Positions 8,437 through 61,191 of a stretch of 64,000 bases of DNA are shown piece by piece (position 1 is the stretch's first letter; each line of letters starts with the position of its first letter). The notes under the pieces are model-generated. The model did no database searches. It saw only the letters and a list, made by a program, of their open reading frames with translations, and was not told where the DNA came from. Origin of the DNA: Acephala macrosclerotiorum (lineage: Eukaryota; Ascomycota; Leotiomycetes; Helotiales; Mollisiaceae); contig MU119486.1 of NCBI GenBank assembly GCA_014904845.1, positions 1 to 64,000 on the forward strand. The letters are read 5' to 3'. The position numbers were made by a program, and so were the translations under genes.

Positions 8437-8645
8437 CGAACTAGTATAATTATTTATATTATTTTAAATCAATTTTAAATTTTTTTTATTTTGAAATTAT
8501 AAAAATTATTTATAAAAAATAAAAATAAATTTTTTTTATTTAATATATAATTAAAAATAATTATATAATTAAATAATTTTATATTTCGAAATTATTTTTT
8601 TATTTTTAAATATTAAAATCAAAAAATATATATATCCATTTAATA
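8437..8645. other. AT-rich tract (likely mutated repeat DNA)
   Basis: Roughly 200 bases almost entirely A and T, with very few G or C, embedded in balanced sequence. Abrupt tracts like this are what repeat-induced point mutation leaves in Pezizomycotina; the mechanism is inferred from composition only. Confidence 0.7.
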
Positions 8646-17744: not shown

Positions 17745-18010
17745 CGGGGATTTTTATTTTTTATAATTATTAATAATTATTAAAAAAACGGTTTTAATAT
17801 TTATTAAATATTATAAAAAAATAATCCAATTTTTATTTATATTATTAATATTTTATTTTTTTTCTAAATCCGGTAATTGGAAAACTAAGTTTTCAAATTC
17901 GTAAATATTATAAAAAAAAATTCTATTTTTAATTTTTTTAATAAAAAAAATAGTATTTTATTTATTTATTTAAAAACGAGTTTTTTTTTTTTTTTTTTTT
18001 TTTTGAATAA
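17745..18010. other. AT-rich tract ending in a poly-T run
   Basis: About 260 bases composed mostly of A and T, ending in a run of about 22 T. It has the same character as the tracts at 8.4 and 23.2 kb. The following 500 bases (to about 18540) are also A-rich and gene-free. Confidence 0.7.
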
Positions 18011-19118
18011 AAACGACTTAAAAAGACTTAAAACTGCTTTGATTAAATAAGTTCTCTATTTAATTCTCTAAGAGCCGTATTACTAGTTAATAATATATTT
18101 ACAAGTTTTCGACACTGATAATAATCGGAGCTAGAGTAACGAAGATTTGAGTACCAAACCCATGCAATGCTTTTAGAGAATTTCGAAGTTTAGAAAATTT
18201 GTTTAAAGATAAGAAAGCGAAGCAAAGGATAAAGAAAAAAGAGAGGCAAAAGAAGAAATTGACAAAACAAGCCAAGTATAGAAATGTATAATAAAATATA
18301 ATATATTCGAGATAAGAAAAAAAAAACTAAATATTACTTTTTTAAAGAATTAATAATTGAAGCCTCTCGCTTTCGTTATATCGCTCGCTCTATCTCGCTC
18401 AGATTTGCTACCTTTTCGAAGAAACGGGATATAAGTAATAGGGCGACTATGTTTAAAGTGATTATAAAGTAAAGCTCGGAAATATACGAGGCTGCAAAAA
18501 CAGGAATTTCGCGAGGCGAGAGTTTATTCGATAATGCTTACTTAATCAATGTTCATTGCCGCTGGTGCAGCGTAAGGAAGGTTATAGCGGGCCCGAAGAT
18601 CTACCAGAGGTGGTGACCTGTTGTTTGCGTTCCGTTATTACTATGCAATCTGCTTATATTTGATCGACACCGAGCGAAATACCCCAGAAACTTGAAGCTT
18701 GGAGCTCTGTTTTATTAAGGGGTTTCGTTTTGCGCTTAATGAAGCGACGCGAATGCAAAAGTAATAAAAAGCTCGGTATTATTTTCAATTTTGAAAAGAG
18801 GGAACGATGTATTCCCCGAACAGCAGCAAAAAAGAGATATTTGTAGTGTGTTTCGGCGTTAATTGCTGCTACAGTACTAAACAAAAATTATTCGCTACTG
18901 CATTTTTACCCCGCACCCCACCATTTACCCTCCCCCCTTCATTTGACAATAACTCTACCATTATCCGTCCAAATCAAGTTCTGATTGAAGCATTAGAAAG
19001 GCCTAAAGCTAGACTACAAGATGATTAAATTACATTGTGATTGCACTACAAACTGAGCTCAGTATTTAGTATGCCATCCTTTTGCCTGGATTACAGCCTC
19101 TATTCTGTCTGGCATACT

Positions 19119-20162
19119 CTAATATAAATTGTCAAACAAGCTTTGAAGTAAACAGTCCCAGACTGCTTGTAAACATGATTCCAGCCTTTGTCTTGCATGC
19201 TCACTCTTAGATTTATCTGTAAGAAACTCTGGAAACATCTCATTAACCATGCATTTCAGCTCATGCCAGACGTGCTCAATAAAATTGAGGTCAAGGGAGT
19301 AAAGGGGCCAATTCATGAGCTGTGTGATCCCATGGTCTGCAAACCAGTCTTTAACCTTATGAGCTGTGTGGATAGAAGCATTGTCTTGCATAAACTCATA
19401 GCCTGGCTCCAAGTTTGCATACTGTGGCTCTAGTTCTGCGTCCAAGACCTCAATATATGAGTTGGCAGAATACTCATGCTTTTTACTCTCAAAATCCCTA
19501 TTTATGATATAGAGGTTAGACCTTCCAGTATCCCAAAAGCACCCTCAGACCATAACCTTCATAGTCTTACCAGTTGAGTAGGTTTGAACCATTTCTGGGT
19601 GCCATTTTTGCAAAAGCGTGCGAAAGCACTATTCCCTTCTCTGGCCCGTGCCCTTCTCCACAGAACACTTATCACTTCACATGATCATACTCCATTCTTC
19701 TGCATTCCTGCCCTTAAATTTAAGGGCCCAAGCAAGCCTTTGGGCTGCATATGCTGGTGTAAAGTAAGGACGGCGTTTAGCTATTCAATTCTGGATGCCA
19801 TGTTTCCTGAGGATGGCCTTGACAGTATTCTTATGGCAAGAGAGACTACAAGCTTTTATGAGCTCTGCATAGATCTGCCTTGGGTTTGCTCTCACATGCC
19901 TTAGCACTTTGCGTTCCTCTGATGGTGTATAACAAACGTGCCTCTCAAGTCTTGGCAAAGAGGCCCCTTCTGTGCGTTGATTTTGGACATTAAGGGTGGA
20001 GGTGATAGTGGAATATGGCAGCTCATATTCACGTGATATTTCTGTAGGTGTAGAGTCTGCAGTCTTAGCCCCAGAGATCTGACTTCTTTGATATGGAGTG
20101 AGTTCTGGACCCTTTCTTGAATTCCCAGAGGTGGAGCGTAGAGGAGTGCGTTGAGGAGGCAT
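19119..20162 (-). mobile_element. Inactivated Tc1/mariner-type transposon (transposase pseudogene)
   Basis: On the minus strand a single frame runs from an ATG at 20162 to 19119. It begins with a helix-turn-helix DNA-binding region (GPELTPYQRSQISGAK, then a second HTH with KNTVKAILRKHGI). It ends with the DDE catalytic core (EFMQDNASIHTAHKVKDWF, then LYSLDLNFIEHVWHELK). Four in-frame stops interrupt it, at 19785-19787, 19677-19679, 19629-19631 and 19545-19547. Each sits where the family normally has tryptophan, so TGG became TGA or TAG by G-to-A change. The element cannot make its own transposase. I could not identify terminal inverted repeats with confidence. Confidence 0.85.
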
Positions 20163-20823
20163 AATGTGGTTGTTTATGAAGGAAGGATGGAGGGGAACGC
20201 GTCCAAAACGCGCTTTTACGCGATTTTAGCGAATATTTTTTGGCGCTAACTGTAGGCTGCGGTAGTCTTGTTAGCTTGATACTGCGCATCCCTAAATAGC
20301 TTCATTTTCAAGACCACTCTCTTAAAGTCGCCATGCCCACGTTGCAAATAAAGCGTCAACCGAGATCCAAGAAACAACAAAGAAAAGTTTCTATTTCGTC
20401 TCGAAACAGGTCTACAAGAGTCGGGAAGGCCTACTCGGCTACACCCCCGCCGCCCCTCGCCTGGGCCCGGCTCTGGCGAAACACCTTTCTTCCGGAAACA
20501 AGTTTCATCACGAAAAGCAAGTTACCTACAAATTAAATACGCAAGGAATAAAAGGTCCTTTTATGATATATCTTAGAAAAGCAACCTGCGATAATTGTAA
20601 CAAAACTGGAGTTTAAACTGCGAATAATAACCTCAAAATGAGGTCTAATATCGATAAACCAAACCGTCAAAGTTGTATACTAAAATAAAATAAAATAAAA
20701 TAAACTAGACTGGACTGTCAAACCGTATCAATATTGCGAGACCGCCAAACCATTAGTAACACTGCTGATACTTCAGTTTACAGTTGTCATAGTCTAACTT
20801 ACTCAGGGCAGTTTATCTACCCT

Positions 20824-49812: not shown

Positions 49813-51825
49813 ATGTCGCTCGCCCAACCAGGTCAAGCAGGTCAGTTTCCTTGTCCATTCAAGCAATAATCCCATGGGCGCGCTTCGACATCACCGACCC
49901 CCTCCCCACTTCTCACCAGGTTGGGCGTATCAAGTTGGCAATCGCCCTGTTTCAAAGTCCCTAATTCACCGTCATGGACATGCATGAACCCGCCGGCTAA
50001 CAAGAAGATCCTGTTTGTACTTTAGACTCGCAACCTCCCCCAGGCCTCACACTTAATCTTTCTTCCAACAATCCCTTTCGCAATCGAGCAGCTTCTCCTG
50101 CAAACTCGAACGGCAACCGATCTCCCTTTGAAGCGCCTCCACGACCGGTATCACGAAACCCTTTTCTTGACGCCGGTTCGCAAGACACATTCAGTCGACC
50201 CGCCTCTTCACCAGACAAGATGTCATTCGCAACAGACGCTGCTGCACCGCCAAGGCCTGCATTGACGGGCAATGCAGCCGATCTATTTGTACGTCATACT
50301 ATTTTGAGTCGAAATATTCATCACTCTTTCTTGATTCGAGACCTGCTCTAGTCTTGAACCGCTCTCGTCAATTGAATTATGTCTCGGAAAACAGACAATG
50401 GCAACCAAATATTCATCGCTGACTATGACCGTGCAGGATAACCTAACTCTGAACGATAAGCCCCCTTCTTCCAAGAATGGCATGCGACCACCTCCTCGAT
50501 CCAACACCAGCGACAAGCCGCCTCCCCCATACACACTAAGCTCTCGTTCCGAGAATGTTCCGCCTCGAGGACCCCCAGGCCACCGCCCATCTCGATCTCA
50601 AGAGGAGGCTATGCGTGCCCGCAGACATGCCAACCAGAGTTCGTCTAGCAGACCACGCCCAAGCCAGGAACTCGACATCTTCGCCGATCCTGTTGAGGTT
50701 TCGACGAAGGGAGGACCTAAATTGCGAAGAAACTCTGATTCGTCGGTTATGAGCGGACATCGCAAGCCATTAGATACCGAGGAAGAGAAGAAGAAGCACG
50801 AGAGACGTCGACGTGAGCGTAAGGAGCGCAGAGAGCGTGAAGCAAAGGACCCGAAGTCGAGAAAGCCACCCAAGAACTTGGATCTTATCGATAAATTAGA
50901 TGTTACCAGTATTTACGGCACAGGATGTAAGTTGATCCTCAAGGCACGAAAGAATTGCGATTGACATTGATTAGTATTCCACCATGACGGACCATTTGAT
51001 GCCTGCAACCCTCACCGCAATCGACAAGGAAGCAGACGCGCACCGATGCAAGCATTTCCAAAGGATTCTTTGAACAATGTGCTAGGAGGAGGAGGACCAA
51101 TCAACAAGAGACCTGATCACGCTACCTTCTTGGGACAGCAAGACGAGGAGGCTTTCAAGGACTATTCCAAGGGTGGACAAGGATTCAATGGATACGAACC
51201 TTACGACAATGGAGCTATCCGACCTGGACCATCCAAGGCGGAGATCAATGTCTTAAGTGCTACTACGAGAGTAGAACCAATTCACGGTGAAGAAACTCTT
51301 GGTTTGGGCACGTCTACGTTCCTCGAAGGTGCACCAGCATCACGAGCAGCCTTGCAACGACGAGAAAGTGAGCAAACTTCACCAACTGAAGGAGGTCTTG
51401 GGCGAAAGAAGTCACTGGCCCAGAGAATCCGAGGTGTCAACACCAGACGTGACTATGGTCCGTCCGGCCGAATCACAAGCCCCGAGGGTGTTTATTCTCC
51501 TGAGGCTCGCACACCGGGAGGTACCAAGGCCGAGTCGAACCCATTCTTCGAAGAGTTTTCCAAGGGCGACGATAGCATTAAGAAGGACGGTGGTATCACG
51601 ATCGCTGAGCCGGAGAGAACTGGTCGAGCCCGTGCTCCTAGCAGTCCTAGACGAGGTTTCGGTGAGCGCCTTGAGAGACGTGTTACGAGCGATGGCAATG
51701 GCGACATGCCACCTTCCGTTGCTCCCAAGACCGGTGGTGGCTTCTTATCAAGAGTCAAATCTTTGAAGGGTGGACCACGAAAGCCAAGAGCCGAGAAGCC
51801 CTTCCCACAAGCTCAAGACGCTTGA
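49813..51825 (+). CDS. PAL1: Pal1 family cell-morphology/endocytosis protein
   Basis: Exons 49813..49840, 50026..50288, 50437..50926 and 50975..51825 give 543 aa. The signature Pal1 block spans the last junction: LDLIDKLDVTSIYGTGLFHH, then DGPFDACNPHRNRQGSRRAP, MQAFPKDSLNN and NKRPDHATFLGQ. N-terminal NPF motifs (SSNNPFRN, VSRNPFLD) would bind EH-domain endocytic partners. A highly charged helical stretch (EEEKKKHERRRRERKERRER) precedes the core, and the C-terminal third is disordered and Arg/Ser-rich. Pal1 acts at sites of growth and endocytosis at the plasma membrane. The first and second introns (185 and 149 nt) are longer than the rest, so those joins are slightly less certain. Confidence 0.92.
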
Positions 51826-52592
51826 GTCAACGCGTTCATTATCGGCGGATTGTACCAGCACAAATTTCGAGAAAGTTAACGAGCACGAGCACACAGACGG
51901 CTGATAGCCAACGAACGATTTCTTTTCGAATTCACGCTTCCTGCTTTGATTCCTCGCTGTATTGATGGTCTGGATAGCGAAGATTTCCAATAACGGGCTG
52001 AACATACATTAAGCTTGCAATTTTCTTTCTAGAAGACATTCGGGAGGGCATGGGGAGGGATACATGGAGTAATTTCTTTGATGAGGGGCCCACCTCTTGC
52101 ATATAGGGCGTTGGTCTGGGTGGGCTTTTTATCTCCTTTGTGAGAGTAGCAGAACAGCAGAAAGCAGAGTCTGGGCGGAGATGAGGCAATAGCAATTGGG
52201 GGATGATATACGGCGATGAGATGAGGGCAGATGTCTTCAAAGGCAGCATGTATTGTGAGTGGATGGTGGGAAGGAGAGACAAGGTGGTGGCAAATTGACT
52301 CTGGACTGAAGTGAATGGAATGGAGCGAAATGAATTGATGAATGAAACCTTCTATCCTCCCTGCCTTTATGATATGTACACGTTGAGGATCTTCTAGTCC
52401 GTGTTCGCAGTGAATGGAGTCTTGAAACATTGTAGCATTTCGCGTCTAGACTTGTCTTTGGCCCTTCGACAGCGGACATCTAGATTGCATTTAAGACCTG
52501 ACCTTCGGATCTGTTCCTGGATTCACAATGCAATCCAGACTCAATCACTCATCTAAATTCAATCATAGGAAGTACTTGCATTTATACAGCAT
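51826..52592. other. 3' region of Pal1 and spacer; no gene seen
   Basis: Minus-strand frames here (for example 51932-52282) have no recognisable content. Confidence 0.5.
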
Positions 52593-55500
52593 TGTTGCGC
52601 ATCGTAAGGTGGCTAGACCTACTTTCCCCCTTCGGTTGTCGACACCTGGACTCTGTCCCAAACCACAACATCCATTCTCAATCTTCCTCCTGTGATCTTC
52701 CCTACGATCACAACCCATCTCAGACTTAATCAATCCAGAATGAGAGTCCGTAACAGAAGCGTATTTCTATTGCTGCACATCGCAAAGTGGCTAGGCTTTC
52801 CTTTGCCCCTCTTATTGACATCCCGACTACTTCGTCGCCATATCCAAGGAATAAATTTAATTTACAATGCATGGAATCTCCACGCGAGAGAGGGGGTATT
52901 TGTATCTTCGGTCTAGAATTTTGGGTTTGGATAAGGCTTTTTCTCGGGACGAAGTGGGAAGGAGAGGAGGGAAGGAAGCATGCATCCATTGTTGCACATC
53001 GCAAGTGGTGCCGAGGATTGACCAAGAATTCCCATCCAGCCTTCGATGTCCCCCTTTCACGGCGGGAAAGTCTAGAATAAATTCTGCGCCTCGACTTCTC
53101 CAAGACCGAGTAGGGAATTGTTCCTTGGGAAAGGGCAAGAGTACTTGGAGAGGTGAAAGAAAGGAAGGCGGTGTTCCGGCTTAGTTGTTCATGCCTCGTC
53201 GTGTGCGGTGTTTTGAAACGGTGAGGGAGGTTCTAGATTGGGGTTGGAAGCTTGGGGAAAGCCCGGCGGGGGTGCGATGTGCAACAGTGGACGTTTGTTT
53301 CTTGATGTGTGAAAGTAATTTAAGTTAGTATTTGGGTTGGAAGTATTTGGTGGGTTTGAGGGATATATATCACTTCTGGATGAGGCCATTCACTCTGGAA
53401 TCAATGGCGAATATGCATTGAGAAAGTTGAAGAGGAGGTTATGTCCTTTCGTTTGAGGGTTAATAAAGTAGACTGAAGACAGCTTAGCTATTATTGAAGT
53501 GGATTGGTCAATTGAGGAATTTCTGAATGGTGGACACTTGAGAATCCAGGGTTCTAGAATGGAACTACGTTTAAATGGGTTGAGAAACGATGAAAGAGAA
53601 GGATATTCGTCCATATCGTTGAGAATCTGGGTTTCTCAACATTGTGAGCTTAGTTTTAGAAGAAGTGAAAGTCTCTGGGGTCTTCCCAAATTGATGAAAC
53701 TTCTCCAAACAGAATAAGCTTCACTCAAAGTTTCCAACACACCAATCGAATACGTTCTCAGTACTCTAAACGTTCAAAGAAGGACCGAGACGACCGTGCT
53801 GCGAAAGAAACAAACAAACCTCCGGATCCTCAGAATCCGGTTGAGTTCACGGGCCGCTCCCGTTCATAGCGCCAAGCCATCTCGTTCCGGTACAGGTTGA
53901 TACCGGAACTTTCTTCTTCTGGATCTCACCCTTTCAAACCACTGCTTTCTTGCTAAAAATCTCAGTTTAAATGATTCGAGGACTAGAGGTATGTTACACA
54001 TCGAGAAAAGTACCCAGAGGCTAAGGTAGGTGAGGGTTTGGACATAACATGGATTGCAGATGCCGCGCCGAGATGCTTAGAGTCTCGAGCTTTGGCTTGA
54101 ACAAATTCGATTTGAATGTTCGATGTTTTGTTGCATATCTATAAAAGTGCCCAGAAGCTAAGAGACACCGAAGAGTTGGTAAGTTCTTGAATGAACTGAT
54201 GTTGGCTTTGGGTAAGGGTGCTAGGATCTATTGCTGGGTCCGGGATTTTGACGTGCGTCGTCCTGCGACGCTCCGACGGAGGTAGAACGGATGGGTAATT
54301 AATGTGAATTAATGTGAAGGTTGAATAGTTTGTTGCATGTCGACCAAAGTGCCTAGAGGCTAAGTGTTCCGACGTTCTGGCAAAGGTCTTGCTTGGTGTT
54401 GAGAGTGTCGAGTGCGGACGGAAATATTCTTCCTCTCTCTGCATGAATAGTTTGTTGCACGTCTGAATTTCTCGCCCAGGAGCTAAGGAATCCAAAGGTC
54501 TGGAACGTTGTCTAGACGTGTAATATGGACTGATGTTGAAAGTTGAGGTGGGGTGTTGTCGTTGAGTGAGTGCTGAGTTGTATTGAAGGTCTAGATACCG
54601 GGAGGGGTTAGTACCTTGTATTGCTGCATTTGAGTCTGAGAACAACAGAAATTCCTCGAATGAACATTCTTCCATTAGAAGTATCCGTGTCATCAAATGT
54701 CTCTCTGTCACCCTCTGTGGCCATAACATGAAGACGTTGACAAAATTCGGAAGAGCCAAGACCTCTTGGCTCTCGAATTTCTCCAGCCCCATCTCAAGTT
54801 CCACGCAACCTCCAAAAGAAAATCACACTGGAGACAGACAATTGTTGCACATCGCGCCCCTCGCCGAGGCACCAAGATTTCTTTTATTGGTTCTCTCGGG
54901 GTCTCTTCACATCAAAAGACAGAAAAAACGGCCTTATGTCGGGCCTTGGTATGGAGACAAGACGAGGGCGTCGGTTCTGTCGTGTGCCGAGTCGGTACGG
55001 ACGGCGTTGGCGCGGAAGAAGTCTTCCTTTTTGAGTTTCCTTGACGTCGAGACTTTTGGGTTACAGGACAAGAAATATGAGGAACGGAGGGAATTGGGGG
55101 TTTGTTGCATATCGTAGATGCAGCCAAGTTGCACGGGCGGAGCCTGGGATGGATGTAGTATGGGCTGGTGGGTTATGAGGTCAGTTGGCGAGCTCGACGG
55201 GTGTAGTCTTTAGTCTTGACCTACAAATCCAGTACGAAAGCAGTGGATATAGAGCAGAGGAAAGATTTCTTGTTGCAAATCGCACATGCAGCCAGGCTGA
55301 TGGGTATTGGGCTAGATTATTATGAACTTATAGCATGCCACGCGTCGGCGAGGTCTTGCTTCAAGCATGCGGCTTCTTAGACCTTGAGTCACAAGAGCAT
55401 GATACCCAATCTATTCAGCATGAAGGACAGGAAAGAAGTTCTTGTTGCATGTCGGAGATGCAGCCAAGTTCGTGGCAGTTGGTCTAGATGTGCTGTTGGT

Positions 55501-58500
55501 GGACTAAGGTGCTGGCAAGAGGGTCTTTACCGTGAACGCGCCGATGCGGTTATGGTCTTCCTTCTTGGATCTCTTGGTTTACCGGGATAATTGAATATGA
55601 GCGTCGGATAATGAGATCTCGCTACCCGTCGGAGAATATGCCAAGTTCACGGGCGTCAATCCGGAATGGCCGTTGTGGAGTGATGTTGAGGATTTTTGAA
55701 GGTGTTATAGAATGTGCTGGCGAGATCGTTCTGCGAAAAGATTAGGGGTCGGTCGGTGTACGATGCCCTGTTGCCGATGTTGGTGGAAGAATTCTCATTT
55801 TTGAGAAGGAAGCCGACCTCAGAGATGGTTAATATAAAGACGAGAATTGAATTGCATCAGAATGAAAGATCAATAGAGAGGCTCCATCTATGTTCATGGT
55901 CCTCCTGTCTTCGAAAAGGGGAAAGTTCAACAAGTCTTGGCTTAAGCGAACGGCCTTTGCCCAGTTGACTTGACTTCTTCCTCCCGCTACTATCATCCAA
56001 GACATCCAGAAGGTCCTCTCCATGCCACAATTCACCCCAAATAGATCTTTGCTGCACGTCGAACTTCTCGCCCAGCAATTATTACCGGAGGAAAGCTGCA
56101 AGAAAACCGGCGTCTGACGGCATTATATGAAAGGGGCAGCTGCTTGACTGCCGCCGAGCTTCGCCCAGCGGTTCGGAACCGACGGCAATGCCCCGGGTGT
56201 AGAATGGGAATGTCTCTCGACGACGACGACAACAACGACGCAAGCTGTTGACGAATTTGGCTGAGACTTAACTTTTTATGAGGGATATGTGCGTTTTGTT
56301 GCATGTCGAGTTTTGTGCCCAGAGATTTAGTGTTGGAGTTGGCGTGAGGGCGGTCTGCTGGGTGAACTTCGTGAAGTGCAGATAGGGCTGGAGGGTCTGG
56401 ATAAGATGTGGAGGCGTGATGTTCACCGACTTCTGGGCGTTCGATACCGAGTGGGAAACGTCGGGCTGGCACTTCCTTCAGAATTCCTGCTGGTAGTGAG
56501 ATCGTAGCAAGAGGGGACCAGAATTCAAAAGGGGTGTCTTGGCTTTAGCGAGCACATGGCAACACTTTTCGAGGCTGTTCTCAAGACAACATCCTCATGC
56601 CAGACATGACAACCTATGAGGAACCTCTTTCCAAATGTTCTGTTGCACATCGACATTTTCGCCCAGCATTGACCAGCAGCTCACCGGCCCCAAAGTTCGA
56701 CGAAAACGGTTTGGATGATCCCCAAGCAGCGAGCGGTCTTCGCTCGGAGATGAGGTCACGATAGACGGTGCTCAGAAAATCCCCGAAGCTAGAAGGGATC
56801 ATAGGATTAATCTTTAGTGCAGGAAGGACACTTTAGTATGCTTTCAAAGGTTTTGTTGCATTTCGCAAATGTTATGCAGGAGAGTGGATTTCCTTCATGT
56901 CGAGAATGGGAAAGTGGGGAGGGTTTCGGCTTCTGTCCCCCTTTATGCTCAGCTTGGTTGGGATATTTGTTTGTTTTGGTACGCCATGACGAGATGTTTC
57001 TGGGCATATCCCGAGACCTTTTCAGCTCTCATAAACCTGTCTAAGGAGGTATTTCCGTCCATTCGGCTGAGATAATATCGATTTGTTGCATATCGTAGAT
57101 TGATAATCGACGTCCCCGGATCTCACGAGTCTGTCATGCGGCTATTCTGGATTTGGATTTTAACCTCCGAAGTCATGCAGGAATGCACTTCCTAAGATCT
57201 CACGGAATCCTTCGACTCATTAGCCAGTGGGATAAATAGGAAGAAACATTTGTTGCAGATCGCAGTTTTAACCCAGCTGTCCAAGGGTCCATAGGATGCA
57301 TTTTGGCGTCTTCGAGATTGACGCACGTCAACATATATAAACGGGGGACCTAGGCGCTGGATAGATGAGGTTCCGGACGTTGAAGTACCAGCCACCAGGA
57401 TCTCTGAGGAAGATACCACGAGAAGTTGAGGAGGCTTATGTTGCATGTCGCGAAAAATGGATCATCGCGGGCGTGAATGGCCCAGAATGTACTGTGCTTT
57501 GAGGCTGTCACGAGTGGCTTATTCCTTCGCTCTCCTCCACTTACCCCACATTTGCTACCGGTCCACAATGTAACCCTGGGCTGGATATGTTGGATTGGAC
57601 TCCACGATTACCTTCGTAGGAAGTTAGTAGAGCCGTGAAATGACTGTTCAATACCTCTCTGTTGCACATCGCAAGGGGATCGCCGGATCCTGGAGCGCTC
57701 CAGATTCGCGGTTGAAGGTTGAGATCGTCAACTTCTTGACCCTCGCACGGCCATGTGCATCAACTTCATAGAAGATCATCCAGACCTCACTCCGAAAGGC
57801 CTAAAAAAGAGATGTACAGATTATGTTGCACATCGTACAAAGACTGTCCACATTTGGAGCATTCGAGAAGTCTATCTACGGGTTTCTCCAAGTTCTTGTG
57901 TGGCCTTCGCTTTTGTTCTTTGCCCGTCCCCGTCTCACGCCACGAGACATGTCCGTTGCAGAAACACGGTACAGCCTAATGCCAACGAACCCAGATAGTT
58001 AACGTAGCTGCAGTTGAAATTATCTCTCTTTGTCTATCCGGTTTCTGTTGCACGTCGTATAAGATCGTCCACAATTAGAGTATTCGAGAAGCCGTTCTGG
58101 GGGAATCCAACCCATCTCAGGCCACGAGACATATCCAAAGTCACCTGCAGAAGCGTGGAACAGCACCAGCAAAACGGGACACTTGAAGAAAATCCGTCCA
58201 AACGGACCTGTCTCTCAGAGTTTTCAAAATACTGTTGCACATCGTAAATGATCGCCCAGCTCCGCCAAGAGGGCCAGACCGTCCAGGAAGGTTGAGGTTG
58301 ACGATCTCGATTCACCACCAAGATTCATCCATGTAAAGCAGGATGATCTCATATCCGCAGGATGCGCTGAAACAGCAGAACTTCACTTCCGTTGAAGAGC
58401 ATCTACTTTCTGTTGCAAATCGCAGAAAAGGATCGCCCAGCGCATTGCCCACATTCGGATGATTTGGAGCAGTCGAGACCGTGGGAAATGGCGCGAGGCG

Positions 58501-59002
58501 TCAACCCCTTGACCCCACGATCCAAGCCAACAAACGGGCTTCGCCGTATTGGAAACCTTTAATTGTCAATAGAAGCAGGTTTAAGAGAGAACATAATCTG
58601 CAGGAAATGGATTTGTTGCACATCGTAAAATCTGAGATCGACATGTTGAAGGCTTGACAAGCAGGTCTAGACCTAGGACTTTGCCTTAATTAACTTTCAC
58701 GATCCATGATCAAGTTGAAGCCAGCAGACCTTTTTCCAGCCAGCCGTATCTGCCGGAGAACTTGAGAAGGCAATCAGACTCTTGAAAGTCGACTTTGTTG
58801 CACATCGTAAAATCTGTGATCTACGCGCTGATGGCTTGACGAGCAGTCTGGATCTCGGAAGCGCCTTGGTCGAGGGCTTCACGATGGTTGTGTAACTTCG
58901 GTTCGAGTTGAAGCCACCGGGAACTCTGGAGAAAGACTTTATCCAACCAGCTGTGTCAGAAAAAGTGAATCGACTCTTGAAGGTTGACTTTGTTGCACAT
59001 CG
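52593..59002 (+). repeat. Diverged tandem array with a near-invariant 12-bp core (about 27 copies)
   Basis: The core TGTTGCAYRTCG or a one-to-two-base variant starts at 52593, 52771, 52990, 53992, 54129, 54331, 54453, 54843, 55103, 55271, 55443, 56050, 56297, 56641, 56854, 57084, 57252, 57439, 57660, 57824, 58046, 58233, 58411, 58614, 58796 and 58991. One copy at 53275-53286 is inverted, and decayed copies lie near 54622 and 55619. About ten copies carry a second box (GCCCAG or similar) 15-19 bases downstream. Neighbouring intervals are related: 58614/58796, 57824/58046 and 55103/55271/55443 share many blocks. The units are therefore diverged tandem duplicates of about 170-220 bp. I do not recognise the family; no long credible frame crosses it. 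Confidence 0.85.
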
Positions 59003-59533
59003 CAATGGGATCGACAGCTGCCTTATTTGGAAAGTTGAAGTTGATACAGGATGTGCATTTTGGGCCGGTCTAGACCTCGAGATCGTCCAAGCGTGCCCCA
59101 AAGCGGGCTTCACGTGAGGAAGTTTATTTTGGGGGACAGAAATGTTGGAAACTGGGCTCCGAGATCACTTGATCATTGACGTTGAGGTATATACAAGAGT
59201 TTGGGATATGCAGCTTCATGACTTGGATGGAAATCTAGTTATATTAGTTGGCAGAAAGCGTTTGAAAAAGGCAGGCTCGCTTCGGACTTGACGACACTAG
59301 TCTCATCATGAACTTCATCTTCATCTACTGCAGCACAACTTCAACAATGTGATTTCTCGAAGCTGGTCGTCACTTGATTGCAAATCCGTTGTCTCTTCCT
59401 TATTGACTGCTGTGGTCTCCTTCGTTTTACGCCATGCACCGCGTCCTCTCCCTTCAAATTTGAATCGGCAGGCACCACTTTCGTTCTCATCTGATATGTT
59501 GTCTCCCAAAGTCTCACTACAATATCAGACGAA

Positions 59534-61191
59534 ATGGTCGAAATTGAACCTGAGCAAGAACCCGCAACCCCTATGTTAGCGTCGACCCTCCTTGAACTTG
59601 AAGAGAAGCAGAGAACCAGGTTCACCAGACATGGTCGACCAGAACGATTGAGCTCTGGTTGTGAGGAGGTTGATGAAATTCTTGGAGGCGGGGTCGAAAG
59701 GGGCATTGTGATGGGCATCAGTGCGGAAGGTACAGAGGGACGAATGGTAAGTCGCGTCAAGGAATACATGCTGGGATCAAAGTCGATCTCGGTTGAGGGC
59801 TCCTGGCATGTTCCAATTTGTGGTTTTTATCTCTCTTATCATCATTTCCATCACTTGAGTCGATACTGTCACTAACATAAGAACCTAGATCTCACTTCAT
59901 CTCCTGACCTCAATTCTCCTCTCGCACCTGTCAGCTCACGCCTCTCACTCTCCTCAAAAGTCTAACACCAAAGCAACAATCATCGACACCACCGGATCCT
60001 TTCCCCTACCACTCCTCGCCCAAATCCTCAAATCACGCATCACCACCTCTCACGCCCTCCAGTCCCGAAACGCAATCCAGACAGCCAACCATGCCGTCTC
60101 TCGCCCAGACCAAACCTTTGAAGACCCACTCGTGACGGAAAGGATCGAAAGAGACGTCCAACGATGTCTAGAAATGGTAGATATCAGCCGAGTCTTCGAT
60201 ATCGAGGGTCTATGGGAAGTACTTGGTGAAGTGGGGCGAAATGATACTGCGCCTCTCACCGACCTATCGGAAGAAGGAGAAGAAACGACGAAGACAGATG
60301 ACCGTAGTCCTGTATGGCCAGCTCCAGAGCCAGAAATAAACGATAGCCAGGAAGACCTCGCATCGATTGAGGAGTACCCAGCTCGCGTGTCTAATGTCTC
60401 TGTTGCCGAAGTAATTGACAGCGATGAAGAAGATCTTTCACCTATCGATGAGAAGGCCCCGAAAGTTCCAAAACAGAAGGAGAAGGAGGAAGAAGACGAC
60501 GGAGATGGCGGAGTAGAGATAGTGATCATCGACAACATGACACGCATCCTCAACGACCTCTTTTCTCGTAGGGAGAAAAATGACGGTCAGTCTTCCCCTT
60601 TTTCTCCCTTCCCTCCTCTTCACCCTTCAAATCAAGCTAACGCTTCCCGCAGCTCTCAACCTAGCAACTCTGCTCTCCCACCAAATCCACACCCTCTCCC
60701 ACACCCTCAACCACCTCACCATCCTCCACAACTCAACAACGCTCTCCCGAACCCCCTCCTCCTCCACCTACCCCCAAAATCCCCTAAAGCAACCATCCCT
60801 AAAATCAATCTTCGCTTCCAACCCCTTAAAACCCTCTCTCGGAAGCCTCTTCTCTCAATTCCCGAGTTTACACGTTCTTTGTTCGAGCTTGCCAAAAACG
60901 AGGGAGGATGCCGAATTACTTTTTGTACGAGATGATCAAGATGGGCCGCTGGAGCCGGGAAAGGTGGGCTATTGTTGTGTGGTTGAGGTTTTGAAGGATG
61001 AGGCACCTAACCTTGGTGGTCTTTCCCGAGCCAAATCTGGCGGTAATGATGAGAAGGGTAAAGGCGAGGAAAAGGGCAATGAAGAGGGAGAGGGACAGAG
61101 GTTCGGATACAGAGAGCAAAGATGGACAGCAGTTGAGATTCGAGATGATGGGTTGGGATTGAAGTGTGCTTTTGAGATGGGGGTGGGATGA
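59534..61191 (+). CDS. RecA/Rad51-family recombination paralogue with abnormal Walker A motif
   Basis: Exons 59534..59746, 59889..60585 and 60653..61191 give 482 aa. The entry to the RecA core is RLSSGCEEVDEILGGGVERG, the usual lead-in of Rad51/Rad55/Rad57/XRCC-type proteins. The P-loop that follows reads GISAEGTEGRM before exon 2 (ISLHLLTSILL); the usual GK[S/T] lysine is missing. A Walker B-like strand VEIVIIDNMTRIL is present. Between them lies a long acidic insertion (residues about 170-225, many Glu/Asp). The family helps load or stabilise Rad51 during homologous recombination in the nucleus. The exact orthologue (Rad55-, Rad57- or XRCC2-like) cannot be settled by eye. Confidence 0.75.

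Follow-up and report, generated by a model that had tools for sequence, protein, structure and literature searches.

The window analysed here, 64,000 nt of contig C285 of the fungus Acephala macrosclerotiorum (assembly of 69.66 Mb in 778 contigs), carries a tandem array of units built on a 12-bp core, and this core forms the centre of an asymmetric site of about 17 bp that recurs hundreds of times throughout the genome. The site is over-represented genome-wide on both strands, lies off coding sequence in the loci that were read and has been duplicated locally, and its cores stay near consensus while their flanks have drifted. We judge the chances to be about even that one sequence-specific DNA-binding protein of this fungus recognizes the site; the main rival is that it marks the ends of elements resembling miniature inverted-repeat transposable elements (MITEs). 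A first-pass annotation of the window had described the array and called for a genome-wide search for its core. Because the core does recur, the question is no longer about one array but about a site spread over the genome.

A strict site recurs across the genome

All site counts come from one genome (69.7 Mb), with reversed patterns as controls. The 12-mer TGTTGCACATCG occurs 205 times (101 forward, 104 reverse) compared with 0 for its reversed pattern, TGTTGCAYRTCG occurs 433 times compared with 11, and TGTTGCANNTCGCA 277 times compared with 0. Allowing up to one mismatch to TGTTGCAYRTCGCA gives 625 matches against 23, and up to two mismatches to TTGTTGCAYRTCGCA gives 1202 against 214. At three mismatches TTGTTGCAYRTCGCA yields 5823 matches against 2977, an excess that we leave uninterpreted because the reversed word differs in dinucleotide make-up. 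A strict division into intact and decayed sites, suggested at first, is unsupported by this last count.

The full site reads TTTTGTTGCA followed by C/T, A/G and TCGCA, with the 12-bp core at its centre. Across 177 locus-weighted sites, columns −3 to +13 read TTT, TGTTGCA, C/T, A/G, TCG, C and A and carry 0.22–2.1 bits, compared with at most 0.10 bits elsewhere, and these values are upper bounds because exact or near-exact hits supplied the loci. The genome counts are independent of locus choice. The pyrimidine–purine step tolerated mid-site is as would be expected from indirect readout of a bendable step. Among the literature matches listed, no title returned for the exact 12-mer concerns such a site and a concept-level search returned no such element; degenerate forms of the site led to a match on a virus, not to such a site. 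We know of no protein that recognizes this sequence.

Cores are retained in an array of diverged units

Within the window, 27 cores with at most one mismatch to TGTTGCAYRTCG lie at 52593–59002, 26 on the + strand and one on the − strand (53275), compared with three in the remaining window; exact copies number 17 in the array (16 on the + strand) and 0 outside it. These counts agree with the first-pass annotation, which had reported about 27 copies, 26 of them in one orientation, at a spacing of mostly 160–260 bp, a range that holds for 19 of the 25 intervals between adjacent + strand cores. At up to two mismatches the window contains 41 matches, compared with a mean of 13.3 (s.d. 3.2, largest 20) in 100 shuffles. 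A half-seed test, in which the tested part of the core was kept free of selection and circularity was thereby avoided, found TGTTGCA followed by NNTCG in 20 of 22 cases on the + strand of the array, compared with 0 of 3 (+) and 1 of 3 (−) in the remaining window. The array had been thought to fill the whole gap between Pal1 and the next gene; its position between the two stands, but it covers 6.4 of the 7.7 kb from the end of the Pal1 open reading frame (ORF) at 51825 to the next gene start near 59534. Its features are as follows.

52593–59002, + strand: the tandem array, from core 1 to core 27 (core scan and flank alignment)
52593–52604, + strand: core 1, TGTTGCGCATCG, one mismatch (core scan)
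52771–52782, + strand: core 2, one mismatch (core scan)
52990–53001, + strand: core 3, TGTTGCACATCG (core scan)
53275–53286, − strand: core 4, the sole − strand core, in an inverted repeat with core 3 (29 nt, 83%)
53992–54003, + strand: core 5, one mismatch (core scan)
54129–54140, + strand: core 6, one mismatch (core scan)
54331–54342, + strand: core 7 (core scan)
54453–54464, + strand: core 8, one mismatch (core scan)
54622–54633, + strand: decayed core with four mismatches, outside the 27 (by eye)
54843–54854, + strand: core 9 (core scan)
55103–55114, + strand: core 10 (core scan)
55271–55282, + strand: core 11, one mismatch (core scan)
55443–55454, + strand: core 12 (core scan)
55629–55647, + strand: block downstream of the lost core of a core-less unit, in register 177 bp past the previous block (family D12)
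56050–56061, + strand: core 13, one mismatch (core scan)
56297–56308, + strand: core 14 (core scan)
56641–56652, + strand: core 15 (core scan)
56854–56865, + strand: core 16, one mismatch (core scan)
57084–57095, + strand: core 17 (core scan)
57251–57262, + strand: core 18, one mismatch (core scan)
57439–57450, + strand: core 19 (core scan)
57660–57671, + strand: core 20 (core scan)
57824–57835, + strand: core 21 (core scan)
58046–58057, + strand: core 22 (core scan)
58233–58244, + strand: core 23 (core scan)
58411–58422, + strand: core 24, one mismatch (core scan)
58614–58625, + strand: core 25 (core scan)
58796–58807, + strand: core 26 (core scan)
58991–59002, + strand: core 27 (core scan)

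Judged by its flanks, the array is a set of head-to-tail monomers of common descent that arose by tandem duplication, as the annotation had proposed. Downstream flanks of 23 neighbouring pairs at most 400 bp apart align with a mean z of 2.26, compared with 0.60 among 276 pairs at least three units apart, and upstream flanks give 0.76 and 0.22, respectively. Eight of the 23 neighbouring pairs exceed a z of 3, so that adjacent units, which had been called alignable, remain so in about a third of cases; that third is what argues for growth by tandem duplication. Clear local blocks survive at 58612/58794 (53 nt, 87%) and 57840/58061 (43 nt, 77%), and a series of blocks at 55112, 55280, 55452 and 55629 advances in steps of 168–177 bp. 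Within the array, Tandem Repeats Finder (score 40, longest period 500) detects nothing except a 10-bp repeat at 54297–54318, a near-silence that we attribute to units too diverged for it. The GCCCAG box noticed after the core is real within the array, where it follows 7 of 27 cores (0.5 expected) and its shorter form CCCAG follows 9 of 27 (0.7 expected); it is absent from the listed enriched words at sites elsewhere, and one copy was seen by eye at the equivalent position in locus L055. A second over-represented 8-mer, GGTCTAGA, has five copies at 52500–59100.

Retention of the core amid decayed intervals, the contrast that the annotation had stressed, is also borne out. Ungapped identity between neighbours is 0.88 in the core, a value that on its own is biased upwards because units were located by their cores, and falls to 0.42 at +14 to +35, 0.27 at +36 to +119 and 0.29 at −40 to −4, where random sequence gives about 25%. 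The annotation had named two outcomes that could overturn its reading, a core no better conserved than its flanks and a gene model running across the cores; column by column, core positions are far more conserved than the flanks, and the five ORFs overlapping the array have no Pfam match. A coding role of the array thus appears unlikely. Core loss does occur, since the unit at 55629 has no core and the core at 54622 has four mismatches.

Sites form oriented clusters and inverted pairs

In the loci that were read, copies on both strands occur singly, in same-strand clusters about 150–230 bp apart or as inverted pairs. Among 75 neighbour pairs within 600 bp (loci up to L049, outside the window), 58 have both sites on the same strand, L014 contributing 13 of these pairs; 10 pairs are convergent and 7 divergent. 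Spacing between same-strand neighbours, with the array included, peaks at about 150–230 bp and rises again near 375–400 bp. Further unidirectional clusters are found in L014 (15 sites, 14 on one strand), L044, L047, L049 and L051. By eye and without a statistic, which only the GCCCAG box of the window has, several clusters carry boxes of their own just past the core: AACTGTCCAC in L047, CTCGTCGGCT in L012 and GTTACATAAG in L044. The box AAAAGGGCATT stands directly past the core both in L051 and, on a different contig, in L082, and GAGGGCGAA is common to L016 and L051.

Some sites are embedded in longer repeats. Core-masked flanks of 181 sites give 41 cross-locus matches at E 0.01, some of them second cores within the flank, compared with 0 for reversed flanks. 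The palindromic locus L050 has eight further genome matches at seven places on six contigs, with 69–85% identity. Together, the dispersed palindromic subfamily and the cross-locus flank matches indicate that short dispersed repeats carry part of the sites. Two loci, L024 and L053, consist of long inverted pairs with fold z-scores of −5.7 to −9.2, and a genome search with L053 found no further relative. Cores of L055 point alternately in opposite directions, spaced by about 184 bp on one strand and 200 bp on the other; at 200–640 this locus shows palindromic units of about 190-bp period with AATACGGCAGA-like blocks that, by eye, are common to loci on several other contigs.

Sites lie away from coding sequence

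Only 1 of 90 sites falls inside a coding call in 24 loci of 6–10 kb that have such calls. The median distance to coding sequence is 1217 bp for sites and 808 bp for non-coding positions picked at random within those loci, a count that leaves out L019 (seven sites, no coding call) and to which L029 contributes no site. Coding calls are present in 1 of 20 site loci of 1–2.2 kb, compared with 173 of 269 1-kb pieces drawn at random from the array-free part of the window and treated with equal method and threshold, and in 4 of 43 when all shorter loci (0.5–3 kb) are taken. Of 33 ORFs from site loci, 16 have no Pfam match at E 0.01 and the remainder are mutually unrelated, comprising ATG14/VPS38, HLH, prenylcysteine lyase, GST, biotin-protein ligase, polyketide-cyclase (weak), TPR, chromodomain, CoA-transferase, MFS, acetyl-CoA transporter, HET, response regulator, DUF2427, ankyrin, GNL3L and aldehyde dehydrogenase matches. 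A preference for convergent genes was considered and dropped, as orientations flanking the sites are mixed. In L019, positions 1545–2982 form a contig end without ORFs of at least 150 aa, where some cores take TATTGCA or TGTTGTA forms as repeat-induced point mutation would give.

A proposed protein-binding site and its alternatives

Among the functions that the first-pass annotation had suggested under selection on the core, a protein-binding site appears to fit best. A strict site of about 17 bp, present in hundreds of copies and retained amid decay, implies a dedicated recognizing protein. The array also shows two features of a homotypic cluster of protein-binding sites: motif copies exceed chance (27 in 6.4 kb compared with three elsewhere in the window) and are conserved beyond their flanks in both the identity comparison and the half-seed test. 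We propose that one putative host protein binds the site and that selection on binding, rather than copying, would maintain the cores. Its effect would be architectural or regulatory at a distance, through chromatin, replication or silencing rather than as the promoter of a neighbouring gene, and short duplications and palindromic repeats may have spread the site, with the window array as one large cluster. Several observations sit uneasily with this proposal. Redundant sites in an array should each be under weak selection, which is odd beside 27 retained cores. Conservation inside the loci that were read is partly a selection effect, as exact or near-exact hits were chosen, and the three-mismatch count may hint at a tail of decayed copies or at an imperfect control. 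The palindromic subfamilies look like short mobile repeats, and the 130-nt stretches at sites outside the array show a slight fold excess where a pure protein site predicts none.

The main rival, which we regard as possible and clearly less probable than a host binding site, holds that a set of short non-autonomous DNA elements, MITE- or foldback-like, carries the core at or near its ends as the sequence bound by the transposase; the subfamilies would have only this end in common, and the arrays would be tandem-amplified relics. The inverted pairs L024 and L053, the dispersed L050 subfamily, the cross-locus flank matches and the situation of sites away from genes all suit such elements, and some sites have an opposite-strand partner in excess about 80–140 bp downstream. 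A partner of this kind is not in excess downstream in the window array (mean best score 2.8 compared with 2.4 upstream) or in L014 (2.9 compared with 3.6), and elsewhere a convergent partner accompanies a minority of sites, where MITEs have terminal inverted repeats on every copy. No target-site duplication was seen by eye at the two isolated inverted pairs, L024 and L053, and homology within the palindromic subfamily runs on outside the core (by eye). Proximity to transposases was compared for two superfamilies, DDE_1 and hAT: none of 132 clusters (162 sites listed) lies within 5 kb of the 136 matches, where a uniform genome would give about 2.6, and among 71 clusters from 100 listed TGTTGCAYRTCG sites a single one, C12:560656, has a DDE_1 match at a distance of 3.9 kb. 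Neutral relics, moreover, would be expected to lose the core as fast as the flanks, and the cores are retained instead. We favour a host binding site over a transposon end on two grounds: a second end is not in excess in the oriented arrays, and selective retention of the core is not expected of relics. The two are compatible, in that a mobile repeat may have spread the site and the host then kept it.

It is doubtful that each unit is a small non-coding RNA gene with the core as its promoter or conserved 5′ part, in the way that the Ruby motif marks piRNA loci in nematodes. The site is asymmetric, units of about 190 bp have a fitting length for small genes, and sequence just upstream is AT-rich (GC at −20 to 0 is 0.46 in L014 and 0.38–0.41 in the other groups, namely the array, the palindromic loci and the remaining sites). 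Upstream words also recur: ACATTSA at −20 to −11 in 15 of 180 sites from 11 loci, AATGTCC (at most one mismatch) at −40 to −31 in 21 sites from 14 loci, and ACATY at −26 to −7 in 7 of 35 single sites compared with 0 and 1 in two downstream control windows. At leader positions of the window array, however, ACATTSA is absent and AATGTCC occurs in 1 of 27 units. The two boxes at fixed spacing occur in seven sites of five loci, compared with four in two shifted controls, and a common leader was therefore not built on; a common GC-rich downstream body was likewise dropped, being absent from single sites and L014. Folding of 130-nt stretches (−10 to +120) at 138 sites outside the array shows a mild shift (mean z −0.61 compared with −0.06 at −280), about a third of it contributed by the four sites in the inverted pairs L024 and L053. 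We did not take this shift as a common fold; 60-nt windows have no peak, and the array lacks a fold signal at either length. In the 177 sites no other position downstream of the core is strongly conserved, and T-runs are missing from the listed enriched words. No Rfam family reached gathering score in the 13 loci scanned, a scan outside which L023–L054 and the whole window lie; the best Rfam match of the array region (E 0.07) is far below gathering score, and a tRNA search found none. From the predicted folding, a structured RNA is unlikely in the array and the same judgement is less firm elsewhere, and the annotation's suggestion of a promoter or processing element of small RNAs gains no support in the array.

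Promoter-proximal transcription-factor sites controlling adjacent genes are a still less likely explanation. Sites are clustered, intergenic and on both strands, a coding call begins 0.4–0.8 kb from a few single sites (L007, L027), and CCAAT is enriched at −38 to −23 (13 of 134 sites, 2.6 expected). The placement of sites makes a promoter role unlikely: they lie farther from coding sequence than random non-coding positions do, some fall between convergent coding calls (L016, L025, L028), and no gene type is common to their neighbours. We give hardly any credence to chance or to old coding or satellite sequence without function. Neighbouring units do align weakly, like an old satellite, but the genome-wide excess of the 12-mer argues against chance, the lack of Pfam matches among the array ORFs against a coding origin, and a core retained while the rest decayed against a functionless satellite.

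Neighbouring genes and other features of the window

The array is flanked by two genes.

50971–51825, + strand: left neighbour, Pal1 ORF (PF08316, E 2.2e-43)
59534–60935, + strand: right neighbour, weakly Rad51-like gene (two exons modelled, 419 aa; 3′ end unsettled)

The right-hand gene had been called Rad51-type. The gene itself is present, and its likeness to Rad51 is weak (Pfam match at E 0.006, below cut-off; RadA chain at E 0.022); it is perhaps a diverged Rad51 paralogue. The presence of Pal1 and HET genes would fit a filamentous ascomycete. Elsewhere in the window, two − strand ORFs at 19119–20225 in our reading resemble a Tc1-type transposase, the upstream one with an HTH_Tnp_Tc3_2 match below cut-off. 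Overlapping simple repeats occur in two short stretches of very high AT content, at 8476–8614 and 17758–18034, and a 21-bp coding repeat (DTF...G-type heptads) occupies 1374–1537 inside a 475-aa ORF at 320–1747.

Comparison with known systems

Homotypic clusters of transcription-factor or architectural sites resemble the present system in having many copies of one asymmetric site, local duplication, a kept core and free flanks; the site here differs in lying mostly far from coding sequence and in the strong same-strand bias of its clusters. Fungal binding sites are usually shorter and less strict. MITEs and foldback elements are likewise short, dispersed and gene-distant, with inverted ends in some copies, whereas most copies here have no second end, the core is conserved beyond the body and no target-site duplication was seen in the two pairs inspected. 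CENP-B-box satellites have monomers of near-nucleosomal length that diverge except at the protein-binding box, and the array is alike in this respect; the box here is unlike that of CENP-B, and the sites form small dispersed clusters in gene-bearing contigs with flanks that differ at most places. The site also contains GTTGC, as in the half-site of the RFX X-box, which consists of two inverted half-sites, GTTGCY and RGCAAC. Unlike the X-box, it has no conserved second half-site at the X-box position, since positions beyond +13 carry at most 0.10 bits and thus leave no second GCAAC. A literature search joining the RFX1 binding motif of filamentous fungi with GTTGCC found nothing.

CTCF sites of animals offer a further parallel, being asymmetric, about 14–17 bp long, present in hundreds of copies and grouped in orientation-biased clusters, with part of the copies carried by dispersed repeats. 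By analogy, a CTCF-like fungal architectural protein might bind the several hundred to a thousand asymmetric sites, which lie in gene-free stretches and in oriented clusters, an idea that we consider improbable. The sites would then serve as borders of loops or domains, or as barriers that halt replication forks arriving from one side, with the window array among the largest clusters. A review on genome organization in fungi describes CTCF as restricted to metazoans and fungal boundary elements as not fully characterized, and states that what exactly constitutes boundary or insulator regions awaits detailed study (PMC10246852). If architectural, the site would provide a direct handle on this boundary and insulator question; if the end of a mobile element, it would still delimit a dispersed family and reveal how arrays of one orientation expand.

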